From Onthophagus taurus (taxonomy: Eukaryota; Arthropoda; Insecta; Coleoptera; Scarabaeidae): 64,000 nt of DNA. The stretch's first letter is position 1. The number at the start of each line of letters is the position of its first letter. Of the stretch, positions 2,556 through 20,729 are shown piece after piece. The notes below the pieces were generated by a model. The model did not search any database. It saw nothing but the letters and a program-made list of their open reading frames with translations, and was not told where the DNA came from. The position numbers and the translations under genes are program-made. The stretch lies in the NCBI RefSeq assembly GCF_036711975.1, contig NC_091971.1, positions 12,717,501 to 12,781,500 of the forward strand, in the 5' to 3' direction.

Positions 2556-4005
2556 ACCTAACCTTTTATAGACAATATCTATCTTTTAAAGCAGTTTCTA
2601 GTATTGTATAGGTAGTATTAGTCTTTCTCAAGGAGTTTTTAATCTTCTGTCGGCAGTATTCAGTCTTGTACAAGCAGAATTAGTATTCTGCAATCAATGT
2701 GTAGTCTATTGGTAGCAATAACTAACCTTCTATAGACAATATCTATCTTCTGTAAGCATTTTTTAGTATTGTACAGGTAGTATTTGTTTTCCGCAAGGAG
2801 TTTTTAGTCTTCTGGCGGCAGTATTTGGTCTTTTACAAGCGATATTTGTATTCTGCAACCAATTTCTAGTCTGTTGGTAGCAGTACCTTGCCTTTTATAG
2901 ACAATATCTATTTTTTTAAAGCAGTTTCTAGTATTGTATAGGTAGTATTAGTCTTTCTCAAGGAGTTTTTAATCTTCTGCCGGCAGTATTCAGTCTTCTA
3001 CAAGCAGTATTAGTATTCTGCAATCAATGTGTAGTCTATTAGTAGCAATAATTAACCGTCTATAGACAATATCTATCTTCTGCAAGCATTTTTTAGTATT
3101 GTACAGGTAGTATTTGTTTTCCGCAAGGAGTTTTTAGTCTTCTGGCGGCAGTATTTGGTCTTCTACAAGCAATATTTGTATTCTGCAACCAATTTCTAGT
3201 CTGTTGGTAGCAGTACCTTGCCTTTTATAGACAATATCTATCTTTTAAAGCAGTTTCTAGTATTGTATAGGTAGTATTAGTCTCTCTCAAAAAGTTTTTA
3301 ATCTTCTGTCGGCAGTATTCAGTCTTCTACAAGCAGTATTAGTATTCTTCAATCAATGTGTAGTCTATTGGTAGCAATAACTAACCTTCTATAGACAATA
3401 TCTATCTTCTGCAAGCATTTTTTAGTATTGTGTAGGTAGTATTTGTTTTCCGCAAGGAGTTTTTAGTCTTCTGTCGGCAACATTTAGTATTCTACAAGCA
3501 ATATTAGTATCCTGTAACCAATTCCTAGTCTGTTGGTAGCAGTACCCAGCCATTTATAGACAATATCTATCTTTTAAAGCAGTTTCTAGTATTGTATAGA
3601 CAGTATTAGTCTTTCGCAAGGAGTTTTTAGTCTTCTGTCGGCAGTATTTAGTCTTCTACAAGCAATATTAGTATTCTGCAACCAATTTCTAGTCTACCAA
3701 TAATAACTAACCTTCTATAGACAATATCTATCTTCTGCAAGCATTTTTTAGTATTGTATAGGTAGTATTTGTTTACCGCAAGGAGTTTTTAGTCTTCTGT
3801 CGCCAATATTTTGTCTTCTGCAAGCAATATTAGTATTCTGCAACCAATTTTTAGTCTTCTGTCGCCAATATTTAGTCTTCTGCAAGCAATATTAGTATTC
3901 TGCAAAAAATTTTTAGTCTGTTGGCAGGAATAACTAACCTTCTATAGACAATATCTATCTTCTGCAAGCATTTATTAGTATAGTATAGGTAGTATTTGTC
4001 TCCTG
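2556..4005. repeat. 165-bp satellite with 330-bp higher-order (dimer) structure
   Basis: The landmark TATAGACAATATCTATC recurs about every 165 bp (near 2565, 2731, 2896, 3062, 3227, 3389, 3556, 3719, 3947). Alternate monomers share diagnostic variants. One class reads TCTTTTAAAGCAGTTTCTAG after the landmark and the other TCTTCTGCAAGCATTTTTTAG, so the real unit is a two-monomer dimer of about 330 bp. The last copies, from about 3780, are rearranged. Confidence 0.85.
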
Positions 4006-4511
4006 TCTTCAAAGTTTTTTTTATTACCAGAACAGCTAATAGAGTGTAAATTTTAGTTAATTTAGCACCTGAGTACTCTTCAACGACAAAGTGCTTTCTT
4101 TTTGCCATAATGATGGAGTGAGAATAAACATGTTGAAACACGCACAACACTTCATAAATTATAACGGTTATAAACGCTCAGAAAAAATTATACTAAAATA
4201 AATATGCATTAGGATTGAGGGATACAGTAATTAATAATTGTTTAAGATTTTTATAGCATTTTAGGATTTAAAGAAAAAATATTAAATTAAATCATTTTTA
4301 CATTTTTATTAGATATAGTTACACCATAATCCTAATTAATTTAATAAATTGTTAAATATGTTAAATATCAACGACAACATTTAATTTACAATGAATTAAA
4401 GGAATAAAAAACATCAGTCGATAAGCAAGAAAACAATTTTTTTCAAGAATATTAATTATTATGTTAATATCAAGTAAATATCCCAAATCATTTTTTTACA
4501 TAAATTAATAG
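4006..4511. other. AT-rich sequence, nothing recognised
   Basis: A short open frame on the minus strand here overlaps the satellite and has no recognisable domain. I see no other structure. Confidence 0.5.
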
Positions 4512-6019: not shown

Positions 6020-12908
<6,889 letters not shown>

Positions 12909-15080: not shown

Positions 15081-15467
15081 ATTTAATGAATCAACTAATC
15101 AATTTAATGAAATGTACACCTTCAAATACAAATTGGATTAAATAGATGGCACCACTTTGAATGTTTTTAAATCTAATTTTTATATTTATTAATATAAAAA
15201 CATTTCTAATATTTATAATTAAATCAAAAACGTTTTGTTGTAATAAAATTTCTTTATTTTTTTTATTTTGGTAACCTACATTCGTTCGTTTCGTATCTAA
15301 AAAAATGTCTTTCATGCTTAATTAATTAAAAGGAGGAAGATTAAGAAGTCCAATAAATACTAAAGTAACATTACAAATTATTTTAAATTAAAACTACCAT
15401 TGGTAATAAAACGAACATAAAATGAAAAAAACTAAAATTTCAGTTCTCTCGAAATCTTTGTTTAATG
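15081..15467. other. 3' flank of the serpin gene
   Basis: AT-rich; presumably the 3' untranslated region of the distal-exon isoform. A minus-strand AATAAA lies near 15253. Nothing else is recognised. Confidence 0.4.
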
Positions 15468-15749
15468 TTAATATGGTCTTCTAAATACTCCCATAAAAAC
15501 AACGGCGTCTTGTATTTTATCGTAAATAATGTAAATAAAGGGATGATTACATTTAAATTCAGCTGGTTCTATAGGTCTACTTGAACGGAATGTAAATAAT
15601 ACTGTTGAAGCTGCAGCTTCAGTTCCTTGCTCGTTCACCTCAATTTTCGCTTTATGCAACGCACTTCCTAACGTTACATTTCGGTTGGTTAACGTTGAAA
15701 AATTAGCACTTTCAGAAAATAAATCACCTACACCTAATTTTTGAAGAAC
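15468..15749 (-). CDS. Serpin alternative terminal exon A (distal reactive loop)
   Basis: It encodes 93 residues from VLQKLGVGDLF to GVFRRPY. The reactive loop reads GTEAAASTVLFTFRSSRPIE then PAEFKCNHPF. By hinge counting (Gly of GTE as P15) the scissile P1 falls on Ser after FTFR, or on the Arg itself if the loop is one residue short. The acceptor is TTTTTAG at 15750 upward. An Arg P1 would suggest trypsin-like targets; this is inference. Confidence 0.85.
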   Translation of the reverse strand, partial: VLQKLGVGDLFSESANFSTLTNRNVTLGSALHKAKIEVNEQGTEAAASTVLFTFRSSRPIEPAEFKCNHPFIYIIYDKIQDAVVFMGVFRRPY

Positions 15750-18700
15750 CTAAAAATAATCAAAATATTTAATACAATCGTTTTCTATTTTATCGACATT
15801 ATTAATTGTCATTTTAAATTTGTATAATTAGGCAACCAATTATACAATAAAATGAATAAATAAAAATAAGTATAATTTAACAACATAGTTAGTTTTTATT
15901 TACTTAAGAAATCTACATTACTTAATAATCACAATTGGTTATTTTTCTTTTTAATTATTATTAGTTTTATGGCAAGTCAAAGAAGAAGTTTTTTTAGTCA
16001 AATTAAAAAGTATGTACAACAAACACATCGTTACATAAAAAATAATGTAAAAGATTACTTCGGATTCCTATAGATACCAATAAACATGATCGTACTAGTT
16101 TTTTTGTTGTACAACAAGAAAATAAACGGTCTGTTACATTTGAATATAACGGCATCATCGTCCGCTTCGTCGGTCATCATACGAAAAGTGAACAAAGCAG
16201 TGGCGGCCGCCGCTTCAGAACCTTTTTCATCGACGTCTATCCGCGCTTTGTGCACTCCGGCTCCCAAAGAAACCTTCTGTTTATTGCTCAACAACGAGAA
16301 ATCGGCATCCGAATGAAACAAGTTTCCCACACCCAACGATTCTAGTATCTATATACCCGAAAAAAAAGTGTTAAAAAGACTTTCAAAATAGAATCCCCGA
16401 AAAACCAAAGCAAAAATAGTTAGCAATAATCTACGTCAATATTCAATAAAATTAATTTTTTAGGTTAACCTGTCAATTTTGACAATTCTAAATGTCAAAT
16501 TTCAAAACTAAATAGACTTTATTTTATTGAATATATCATAATTGTGTAATAAAATAAACATAATACGACTTACCGGTGTCATTTCGATTGTATCTTCTAA
16601 ACTGAACTTTGGTAAAGATAAATAAACAGTTTTTCCTAATAACGTGTTATGATTCCTAATCATGTGTTGGAATCTTTCTGGCGTGAGTTTTTTTAAAGTA
16701 TTATCAACACCATCCTCTTTAACGAATGGTGGGAGTAAAATGTACATGCTAATTTCTTCTCCTTTGTAAGGTAATTCTAAAATATGCGCATCCAAGACGT
16801 CTGAAACATCGTGACTAAGCACACCTTCCATATACATCATATCAACAATTGTTTGTTTTGACGGGGTTATATAAAATACTTCTTCTTTAGTATTAGAAAC
16901 ATTAAATTCATATTTCCAACTGCCCTTAAAGTAACCCGCATTGACCAAAACTAGATTGGTTTGGGGATCGATTACCCCAGGTGGAAGCAAATCTTTAATC
17001 ATGTTATGAGTTTGTTGTGAAACCCAGTTGTTTATTGTAAGTCTAGCCCCTTCGGGGTTTGTTGCAAAATTGGCCTTTTCAAATTCTTCTCGGAAAAGAT
17101 CTTCGATACAGTCTCTTATTTCAATACCTTTATCTACATAGATTCGGTTTGCGTTTGTAAATTCATATGAACTATTTGATTTTGCTATCGATTGAGTGAT
17201 GTATTTATCTAATTTGTAAGCGTTCATCACATCGGATTTATCCTAAGAATTAAACGAAAAGTGTTATAAATAAATAAATTTTGTGTTAAATTTTTAACGG
17301 TTGGTAATAAAAATGTGAAATTAAAAAAAAATATGTTAAATAACAAAAATTAATTATAAGTTATCCCTTGGGTTTATATTTATAAATAATCATGATTTTT
17401 CAAGGTTAATTTAATAAAAAAAAGTAAATTTGTTTATCTGTCAAATTTGAAAATTAATTAATTTTTGTATTTTTTTTTAAATATTAATAATAATTACTAT
17501 AATACGTTTAAAATTATTTATAATAACAATTTCTCAAGTTAATTGTCTAATTAAAAATAAATACATTTTTAGATTGATTACATTTAATTTTGTGTTAAAT
17601 TTTTAACGGTTGGTAATAAAATGAGAAATTAAAAGAAATATGTTAAATAACAAAAATTAATTAAAAACATTAATTATAAGTTATCCCTTGGGTTTATATT
17701 TATAAATAATCATGATTTTTCAAGGTTAATTTAATAATAAAAAATAAATTTATTTATCTGTCAAATTTAAAAATGAATTAATTTTTGTATATTTTTTTAA
17801 ATATTAATAATAATTACTATAATGCGTTTAAAATTATTTATAATAACAATTTCTCTATATCAATTGTTTAATTAAAAATAAATAAACTTTTAGATGGTTG
17901 GTTGACTATATTTAATTTTGTGTTAAATTTTTAACGGTTGGTAATAAAAATGTGAAATTAAAAAAATATATGTTAAATAACAAAAAATAATTATAAGTTA
18001 TCCATTGGGGTTTATATTTATAAATAATCATGATTTTTCAAGGTTAATTTAATAATAAAAAGTAAATTTATTTATCTGTCAAATTTAAAAATGAATTAAT
18101 TTTTTATATTTTTTTAAATATTAATAATAATTACTATAATGCGTTTAAAATTATTTATAATAACAATTTCTCAGTGTTAATTGGATAATTAAAAATAAAT
18201 AAATTTTTAGAAGATTGGTTGATTACATTTAATTTTATGTTAAATTTTTAACGGTTGGTAATAAAATGTGAAATTAAAAAAAAAGTTTAAATAACAAGAA
18301 ATAATTTAAAAAAATTAATTATAAGTTATCCCTTGGGTTTATATTTATAAATAATCATGATTTTTCAAGGTTAATTTAATAATAAAAGTAAATTTATTTA
18401 TCTGTCAAATTTAAAAATTAATTTTTTCTTTTAAATATTAATAAGAATTACTACGATACGTTTAAAATTATTTATAACAACAATTTCTCAATGTTAATTG
18501 TCTAATTAAAAATAAATAAATTTTTAGATGATTTGAATAAAAATTTCTGTTTTGACAGTTGGTATTAAATTTTCAAATCAAATGTCATTAATGAATGTTT
18601 ATATTTAATTTTAAACATATTATTATAAAAAAAACAACCTGCATATTCATCGTAAATAAACATAGATACAATTAACATAGAGAAAGCATACAACGAGAAA

Positions 18701-19039
18701 GTTCAAATATAAAATAATTACGTTTCAGGTATTCTTACTCACCATGGAGGAATCTAACCTCAAAGTTTTCTTAAGAAAACTCTCCGTTTGTCCCCCTGAT
18801 ATAAAATAGGCCAATAACAAAGCGTGGTAAGTGGAGTAAGGTGAGAAAAAAAGATTATCGTTCGGCCCCAGTTGATTAACAGCTCTTAATAAGTTCAAGG
18901 AAAACTCTTGCTCGCCGCTGTAGAGGTTTTGTTTGGCGTTCATTTGGGGGCTCTTATGATCTTGTACGGTCAGGCATTGTCCTTGAATTTCGTAGAAGAC
19001 GGTAACGAAAATGGTTAAGATGATGTTCCACATTTTTAT
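15468..19039 (-). CDS. Secreted serpin with two alternative terminal (reactive-loop) exons
   Basis: A serine-protease-inhibitor-fold protein, probably controlling haemolymph or extracellular proteases. Coding exons on the minus strand, all phase 0, are 18743-19033 (signal peptide starting MWNIILTIFVTVFYEIQG, then helix A to LRLDSSM) and 16574-17242 (starts DKSDVMNAYK; contains NPEGARLTINNWVSQQT, LVNAGYFKGSW, MYILLPP and ends LPKFSLEDTIEMTP). These are followed by either 16055-16348 (exon B) or 15468-15749 (exon A). Both terminal exons carry the hinge, reactive loop, the CN[H/R]PF motif and a stop, giving 417 or 413 residues, a normal serpin length. The ATG exon is preceded by an acceptor (TTGCAG at 19040-19045), so the longer upstream frame is 5' leader or intron, not coding. 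The EAAA hinge indicates an inhibitory serpin. It resembles arthropod Spn88Ea-type serpins, but the orthologue is not certain. Confidence 0.9.
15750..16054. other. Spacer between the two alternative serpin exons
   Basis: 305 bp of AT-rich DNA with minus-strand AATAAA near 15894, which could end the exon B transcript. No third reactive-loop exon is visible here. Confidence 0.5.
16055..16348 (-). CDS. Serpin alternative terminal exon B (proximal reactive loop)
   Basis: It encodes 97 residues from ILESLGVGNLF to GIYRNPK. The reactive loop reads GSEAAAATALFTFRMMTDEA then DDDAVIFKCNRPF. It is identical to exon A up to FTFR, but the P' side differs completely: it is acidic and four residues longer. 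The acceptor is TATATAG. P1 is Arg or Met depending on loop length. The codons are clearly richer in G and C than in exon A. Confidence 0.85.
   Translation of the reverse strand: MLESLGVGNLFHSDADFSLLSNKQKVSLGAGVHKARIDVDEKGSEAAAATALFTFRMMTDEADDDAVIFKCNRPFIFLLYNKKTSTIMFIGIYRNPK
17270..18560. repeat. Four tandem copies (308-328 bp) in serpin intron
   Basis: TTTAACGGTTGGTAATAAAA marks copies at 17293, 17602, 17930 and 18247. Each is followed by CCCTTGGGTTTATATTTATA (or a one-base variant) and CATGATTTTTCAAGGTTAAT. The copies differ by small indels. They lie entirely inside the intron 17243-18742 between the first and second coding exons. Confidence 0.85.
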
Positions 19040-19653
19040 CTGCAACGTTGAAACGATATGACTCATATGTAAGGGAAAGTGGCACATGAAAAGCGAAGAA
19101 CTCATCGACGAGAAAGAGGGGTTTTTATGAAACACTTTCTCGAATTTTTATGCTCCATTTTTCTTTTAATTAAATTTTTTTCTTTTTTAGTATTTCAAAA
19201 GTTAAATTTATTTGAAACGATTCATGTTTTGAATTTTAAAATCGAAAGATAAACGCCACTTGAATTTTAAACCGTTTTGATTTCGAAACGAAGAATTCCC
19301 CGATGTTTGACTATTACATAATCGAGGTGAACGTTTTTTTTTCTTCAGATTTCCGGTTTTTCCTTGCATCATCACTAATTATTTTCTTATATGAATGTAA
19401 AAGACGTTTCACGGATCTTATTGGGTTCTAAGAAAATTTTATGTTAAATAAAACAAAGATAAACAAAGAAACAGATATGAACGTGTTGAGGATAAAGACC
19501 GTGTTAATATAATCATTTAAAGCGATAAATTTTGAAGGTTATTGATAAAGTGTTGATGAAGCGAATCGAATAAATTTTGTTAAAATTAAACAATTAAAAT
19601 TTTTGGAGCACAAATAATGTGGTGGTGTAATTAATCGGCATTTTACTACGCAC

Positions 19654-19735
19654 CTCTTAAAATTTTTTTTGAAACACTTAAACACACTTAACACTAAAGA
19701 AGTAAACGACACCGCGCAGCTCTGGCAATCACACT
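19654..19735 (-). other. Serpin 5' untranslated exon (predicted)
   Basis: It runs from the predicted start at 19735 to a donor (AAGAG then GTGCGT) at 19653. Splicing to the acceptor at 19040 joins it to the coding exon six bases before the ATG. The intron 19040-19653 shows no other feature. Confidence 0.6.
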
Positions 19736-19767
19736 GAGCGCCACTCCGCAAGAAAACAAGTTTTATA
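19733..19767 (-). promoter_or_regulatory. Serpin core promoter: TATA box and TCAGT initiator
   Basis: On the minus strand TATAAAA occupies 19761-19767 and the arthropod initiator TCAGT occupies 19733-19737. The initiator A is at 19735, 32 bases from the first T of the TATA box, which is canonical spacing. Confidence 0.75.
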
Positions 19768-20729
19768 CATCGCGTGTCACCTTTCCAACGATGTCTAACT
19801 CGATTCGGATCGCTTAAAAGTACTTTTTCCGCTCATTTAAATTTAAATTTAGCTTGAAGAAGTACTTTTTATGTTATCTTTATGACGTAAAAGAAATCGT
19901 GATGTATTTAGTACAAAAACTTATTTCTTTTATTATACGTCTCTTGGTCGATCCACGAAGATTTAGCTCGGTGCTATTTTTTATAATGATTAATGTTACA
20001 AGAGTGGGATTTCCAATTCAAAAACCGCACCGAATCGTTTGGGATTTCTGTTTCGTTTTACAATACGGGCGAGGTTGTATGCAATTTCGCGAAATTTACA
20101 ATCCGGAAATTTATCAATGAATAACAATTAATAAAACAACAAAAATAGAATTTAGAAAAAGAACTCCCACATCTAAGAACTATAAAAGTATTAACTATTG
20201 CGGGTACTAGGAAGTGGATGGAAAAACGTGACTTTAAACAATACAACGAGTTTGAATGTACATAACTATTAAATGGGATTGTTGATTTTTTTGTTTGTTA
20301 TTTTTTGAGATTAACAGGAAGTTAGCGGTGTTCAATTGACCGTTGCCAATTTGACAAGGTTAAAATTGTAATGCATGTAAATTATTTAATAAGATATATT
20401 TAAAAAAAAATCTTATATAAAAATATTAAAATACCAACTTATTTTTTAAATAAATATTTACAGTTTGGTACATTAAAAATAGTATTCTAAATTAAAATGA
20501 TTGTAATTTAACAATATTTATACAGACCCATCGATTTATAAAAAAAATTAAGGTTATATTTTATTTAAACCGGATTTAAAACGAATTAAAACTTAATTTT
20601 TACTTTTCAAAATGTCAATTCATTATAATTTATTCATATCAAGATTTTTTGCATGTTTGTTAGATTTTCATGTTTATTCAAGGCGTTATTCTAAGAATAT
20701 TTTGTCCTTTAATGATTTTTAGACTACAC
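19768..20729. other. Intergenic, nothing recognised
   Basis: Short open frames on both strands lack domains or splice context. The region presumably includes serpin upstream regulatory DNA. Confidence 0.4.

Follow-up and report, generated by a model that had tools for sequence, protein, structure and literature searches.

A serpin gene of Onthophagus taurus with two probable alternative last exons that exchange its C-terminal quarter and reactive loop

The choice between exons that encode the reactive loop is known in serpin genes from Manduca, Bombyx, Cydia, Drosophila, Pteromalus and others, according to the portions of the literature covered here, and Manduca serpin-1, Drosophila Spn42Da and Pteromalus PpSerpin-1 each combine one core with alternative C-terminal exons that alter the reactive loop, like the gene described below. 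Among 192 insect serpin genes with C-terminal splicing that were surveyed (PMC10513286, sections covered), 180 were spliced at the end of the hinge (161 at +1 and 19 at +4) and the remaining 12 elsewhere, and the account of PpSerpin-1, taken from an excerpt, gives a swapped piece of 44-50 residues. In the described cases, as far as the covered portions go, the residues at the cleavage site usually differ between isoforms, for example among the six Cydia serpin-1 isoforms, whose predicted P1 residues are of the trypsin, chymotrypsin or elastase type. Four of the 31 serpin genes of Tribolium castaneum (serpins 1, 15, 20 and 28) have two variants each by exon duplication (PMC2375007, covered in part), and in this production of two reactive-loop variants they resemble the present gene. 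Parts of PMC10671500, PMC5691223, PMC3494705, PMC7193170, PMC9218052, PMC10735303 and PMC4408586 also served as a basis for the comparison.

The O. taurus genome (290.8 Mb, 33 contigs) was searched, and the gene was studied in a 64-kb window, the whole stretch of DNA analysed (positions 12,717,501-12,781,500 of its contig). The serpin gene is on the minus strand of the window and reads 19033-18743, 17242-16574, and then either 16348-16055 (exon 3a) or 15749-15468 (exon 3b), with the following features:

19654..19767, minus strand: candidate core promoter and 5'UTR exon, inferred by eye (TATAAAA from 19767, TCAGT from 19737)
19653 to just before the ATG, minus strand: candidate 5'UTR intron, by eye (GTGCGT donor at 19653, acceptor GTTGCAG)
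18743..19033, minus strand: coding exon 1 with the start codon and the N-terminal serpin region, 97 aa (Pfam Serpin E 1.4e-08, profile 3-56); its N-terminus, judged by eye, is hydrophobic and a candidate signal peptide
16574..17242, minus strand: coding exon 2, the constitutive serpin core, 223 aa, ending CCG/GTAAGT, the slash marking the junction (Pfam Serpin E 4.1e-55, profile 68-277)
16055..16348, minus strand: alternative terminal exon 3a, 97 aa and TAA, hinge DEKGSEAAAAT, loop ALFTFRMMTDEADDDAVIF (Pfam Serpin E 3.8e-24)
15468..15749, minus strand: alternative terminal exon 3b, 93 aa and TAA, hinge NEQGTEAAAST, loop VLFTFRSSRPIEPAEF (Pfam Serpin E 2.5e-27)

All exon junctions of the gene are GT-AG and in phase 0. 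The acceptors of the terminal exons read TATATAG/ATACTAG at 16348 (3a) and TTTTTAG/GTTCTTC at 15749 (3b), and the frames are open to the TAA in both, 3a ending at 16055 and 3b at 15468, giving predicted isoforms of 417 aa (A, with 3a) and 413 aa (B, with 3b). The Pfam Serpin family (PF00079) is matched along the length of its domain and by every exon separately, which places the product in the serpin superfamily, and a comparison of isoform B with PDB chains gave a conserpin as the best match (E 1.8e-60). Since 3a and 3b, each alone, match positions 279-370 of the 370 of this model at the E values listed, the terminal exons are not a chance pattern. Two in-phase C-terminal exons follow one common donor, an arrangement expected of alternatively spliced reactive-loop serpin genes. 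Such a pair, each member with hinge, loop and stop, had been proposed in the original prediction, and the junctions it gave are present, with exon 2 ending at 16574 and GTAAGT following. Judged from the sequence, this is most probably a single serpin gene of inhibitory type, its product probably secreted, with two alternative last exons.

Several further features of the gene body were observed. Third-position GC alternates along the gene (exon 1 0.53, exon 2 0.30, 3a 0.51, 3b 0.19), with exon 1 differing from exon 2 (p=1.5e-4) and 3a (50/98) sharply from 3b (18/94; p=4.7e-06); the latter contrast counts against the reading of 3a and 3b as alternative last exons. Intron 1 consists mainly of a tandem array at 17277-18530, with a unit of 317 bases, 4.0 copies and 88% matches, and near the presumed promoter the minus strand carries the kappaB-like strings GGAAATCCC and GGGGAATTCTTC, starting at 20014 and 19301.

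The extent of the exchanged piece sets the gene apart from the serpin-1/Spn42Da type. In an alignment to the conserpin, the boundary between exons 2 and 3 coincides with the beginning of helix I, so the swapped piece holds what we take to be helix I, strand 5A, the hinge, the loop, s1C, s4B and s5B. The splice point lies upstream of the end of the hinge, by 49 codons in B and by 50 in A, and not at the hinge end (+1 or +4) where serpin-1 and Spn42Da are spliced. At 93 or 97 residues, the exchanged piece is roughly double the usual length: the whole C-terminal quarter is exchanged here, whereas genes of the serpin-1/Spn42Da type exchange only the part after the hinge. The parallel originally drawn to Manduca serpin-1, Spn42Da and SRPN10 therefore holds for the alternative loop exons but not for the splice point, which in the cited kind is mostly at the hinge end. 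The two isoforms had been expected to share the P side and to differ in P' contacts, but the swap also alters the remainder of the C-terminal quarter.

We then examined how 3a and 3b are related to each other and to other serpins of this genome, in which a family search gave serpin matches at no fewer than six places (15 matches, 20 candidates scored). Of 93 aligned residues, 45 (49%) are identical between 3a and 3b, with identities of 60, 73 and 31% at codon positions 1, 2 and 3; dN was 0.44 and dS was not computable. Because residues have been kept while third codon positions have been randomised, the two exons look like an old duplication, both copies of which are held by selection on the protein. 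The original prediction had the loops identical in FTFR and diverging afterwards; FTFR is indeed common to both, within a block LFTFR, but the exons differ over their whole length. In genome-wide searches with 5 of 5 candidates scored, 3b and 3a as queries found each other at 90.4 bits; the runner-up for both was a place on contig C8, at 50.3 bits with 3b and 34.2 with 3a, which makes the two exons reciprocal best matches in this genome. No third cassette was found at the locus: these genome-wide queries gave only 3a, 3b and three other serpin places, and further terminal-exon matches inside the window (E up to 10) were sub-significant, the best at 0.30. The loop end FKCN is common to 3a and 3b, and no Cys is present at its position in the corresponding stretches of the serpin loci L009, L010, L011 and L012/L014. 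A collection of bacterial and archaeal contigs gave 7 pattern matches for relatives in one of two scans, none of them confirmed.

Given the in-phase acceptors, the two intact serpin ends, the constrained old duplication and the lack of an onward donor in 3a described below, a reading of the locus as a pair of alternative reactive-loop exons is strongly supported at the level of sequence. The exon 2 donor would either join 3a, the transcript being cleaved and polyadenylated ahead of 3b, to yield isoform A, or skip 3a and join 3b to yield isoform B, and each choice would replace the C-terminal quarter and leave the N-terminus and the remaining core unchanged. The following hexamers could mark the ends of the transcripts:

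15895..15900, minus strand: AATAAA, a weak candidate for the end of the 3a transcript
15253..15267, minus strand: two AATAAA (starts 15267 and 15258), weak candidates for the end of the 3b transcript
15190 (start), minus strand: third AATAAA downstream of 3b

The first of these, at 15900, could serve for polyadenylation after 3a. At least one AATAAA between 3a and 3b occurred in 76% of 2000 trials under a first-order model, which is not above chance; for the first 300 nt downstream of 3b, where the hexamers lie 200, 209 and 277 nt after the stop, at least one occurred in 68% of 2000 trials. We rejected the hexamers as evidence of alternative 3' ends and regard them as candidates only.

We considered whether only one terminal exon, probably 3b, is in use, 3a being a duplicate, intact in appearance, that was silenced not long ago or is seldom used. 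The better fit of 3b to the Pfam family model (96.5 bits, against 86 for 3a) and the greater closeness of isoform B than of A to L011 (63.5 vs 50.4 bits) and L009 (43.5 vs 38.5), an order also seen in the genome-wide searches, are consistent with this, as is a second AG 7 nt downstream of the 3a acceptor, the use of which would shift the frame and lead to a stop after 17 codons, so that accuracy at this acceptor matters. However, 3a has neither a stop nor a frameshift in its frame; its silent sites are randomised while it retains the hinge pattern and the 45 shared residues, which indicates long constraint on 3a; and it is isoform A, with 3a, and not B that is closer to L010 (45.8 vs 37.0 bits), with a weak tendency of the same kind for L012 and L014. 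We consider this explanation unlikely.

Less probable still, and by a clear step, is a single transcript that holds both exons by intron retention or read-through, in which 3a ends translation and 3b is 3'UTR. Just 305 nt separate 3a from 3b, and the chance-level poly(A) hexamer in this stretch would suit such a transcript, but 3b has kept an in-phase acceptor and encodes a complete serpin end, neither of which a 3'UTR would require. Neither GTRAG nor AG/GTR, the consensus-like donors sought, is present in 3a or in the A+T-rich stretch of 305 nt that leads to 3b, which argues against splicing from 3a to 3b; 3a thus probably cannot easily splice onward and looks terminal. Docking/selector RNA pairing is known in other mutually exclusive exon clusters, and we also rejected it as what sets the exon choice here, a hardly credible reading in which 16518-16534 near the donor would pair with 16439-16455 before 3a or 15841-15856 before 3b. 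The inverted repeats I1 and I2 have one arm in common, but this pairing reaches -11.9 kcal/mol before 3a and no more than -6.4 before 3b. The best element anywhere in the real introns (-9.0 on its weaker side) was equalled or bettered by 223 of 400 shuffles (mean -9.2), or by 96 of 400 by summed energy, a result that chance alone would give in sequence so rich in A+T.

Returning to the alternative reactive-loop exons, both predicted loops keep inhibitory hinges and LFTFR. The hinges EKGSEAAAAT (3a) and EQGTEAAAST (3b) fit, position by position, the inhibitory hinge consensus as quoted in the covered part of PMC2770083. From the hinge through the F of FKCN, isoform A has 29 residues (EKGSEAAAATALFTFRMMTDEADDDAVIF) and B has 26 (EQGTEAAASTVLFTFRSSRPIEPAEF), so the B loop would be of canonical length and the A loop three residues longer and strongly acidic. 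An excess of four residues had been reported earlier; the count after FTFR is 10 in SSRPIEPAEF and 13 in MMTDEADDDAVIF, and the excess is three. The acidity of the longer loop, also reported, was borne out by net charges after the Arg of -5 in A and -1 in B. None of six loop sequence strings was found in the literature searched.

Up to the Arg, 12 of 16 loop positions are identical between A and B, including all five of LFTFR, and on the P' side none of nine is, compared with 45 of 84 elsewhere (Fisher p=0.0027, with the boundary set after the alignment was viewed). The original prediction that the isoforms share the P side and differ on the P' side is in line with these counts, but the conventional P17 count places Arg at P2 and gives P1-P1' as Met-Met in A and Ser-Ser in B. 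Since this count makes Met or Ser, and not Arg, the P1 residue, primary specificity may differ between the isoforms; the position of P1 is uncertain by one residue. Cleavage after Arg in both A and B would need a P side shorter by one residue, as is known for some serpins, such as alpha-2-antiplasmin, and is possible but not established. The gene likely makes two inhibitors whose target proteases differ, or which contact different exosites on the proteases; that these proteases are of the clip-domain type is a guess.

Anopheles SRPN6 is grouped with Drosophila Spn88Ea. Its predicted P1 is Arg, according to the excerpt covered, and Table 1 of PMC2770083 (a source covered in part) lists Spn88Ea and Spn88Eb with a signal peptide and two introns each, and with P1/P1' of S/A and S/S, respectively. 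Isoform B fits this listing with its two coding introns and, by the 17-residue count, with the S/S of Spn88Eb, whereas the presumed 5'UTR intron would give the present gene three introns, compared with two in Spn88Ea. The likeness to Spn88Ea is one of intron number, signal peptide and the P1/P1' of the published table, and B is probably the older, Spn88Ea-like form. The literature passages covered mention no alternative loop exon for Spn88Ea, Spn88Eb or SRPN6.

Elsewhere on the contig of the present gene (C6), about 4.3 Mb away, the serpin locus L009 (C6:8472500-8482400) has the canonical hinge-end design. Its common part ends in GAEAAAAT (AACTG/GTAAGT, with GTAAGT from locus position 2949), which puts the splice point at the end of the hinge, and the following cassettes lie at the locus (locus positions):

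3776-3952, 6867-7031, 7309-7512, 7838-8032 and 8240-8401: cassettes with an in-phase acceptor and a serpin end (five found, a minimum)
3230-3431, 4160-4328 and 7620-7733: weaker candidate cassettes, some by eye; in 7620-7733 the serpin-end signature is present and no in-phase acceptor was found

With L009 spliced at the hinge end and the present gene upstream of the hinge, two splice designs coexist in this genome. Because the hinge-end architecture of Manduca serpin-1 and Spn42Da belongs to L009 here, genes of that type look like analogues, and not orthologues, of the present gene.

The present gene is unusual in its long cassette, in lying outside the serpin-1 type, and in a P' side that has changed completely next to a constant LFTFR. 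In the literature searched, which most subscription journals lie outside, such a pair was not found described. Strand 5A is the neighbour of the inserted cleaved loop. We tentatively suggest, as a possibility that we think doubtful, a second, old and independent route to serpin diversification, in which a gene not of the serpin-1 type exchanges strand 5A together with the rest of its C-terminal quarter, keeps the residues that precede the cleavage site and changes the P' side, so that targets would be chosen by an acidic P' exosite (in A) and by loop insertion rather than by P1. Constant pre-cleavage residues with a changed P' side would make a natural experiment on the share of the P' side and strand 5A in specificity, one that would need the expression of only two isoforms. 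Given that the general strategy of reactive-loop exon choice is well known, the impact is modest.

In the genome as a whole, thirty-base arrays of telomere type were nearly absent: TCAGG x6 gave 0 matches, and TTAGG x6 gave 2 overlapping matches, both at a single site on C3, forward only and none in reverse, with 0 and 10 in the backward control. The assembly may lack the telomeres, or their repeat may be of a different type.

Finally, L010 and L011 each gave one serpin end in a signature scan, and L012-L014 gave none; the scan was not exhaustive, since tblastn shows ends in L012 and L014 that it did not pick up, and it also overlooked 3b. A tandem repeat of about 183 bases lies beside the serpin gene of L010 (8465-9826), seen as regularly spaced weak protein matches. 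L012 (9208-9714) and L014 (3046-3552), about 310 kb apart on contig C10, show identical stretches and seem to carry the same serpin C-terminal part, a likeness that suggests a partial or whole gene duplication.
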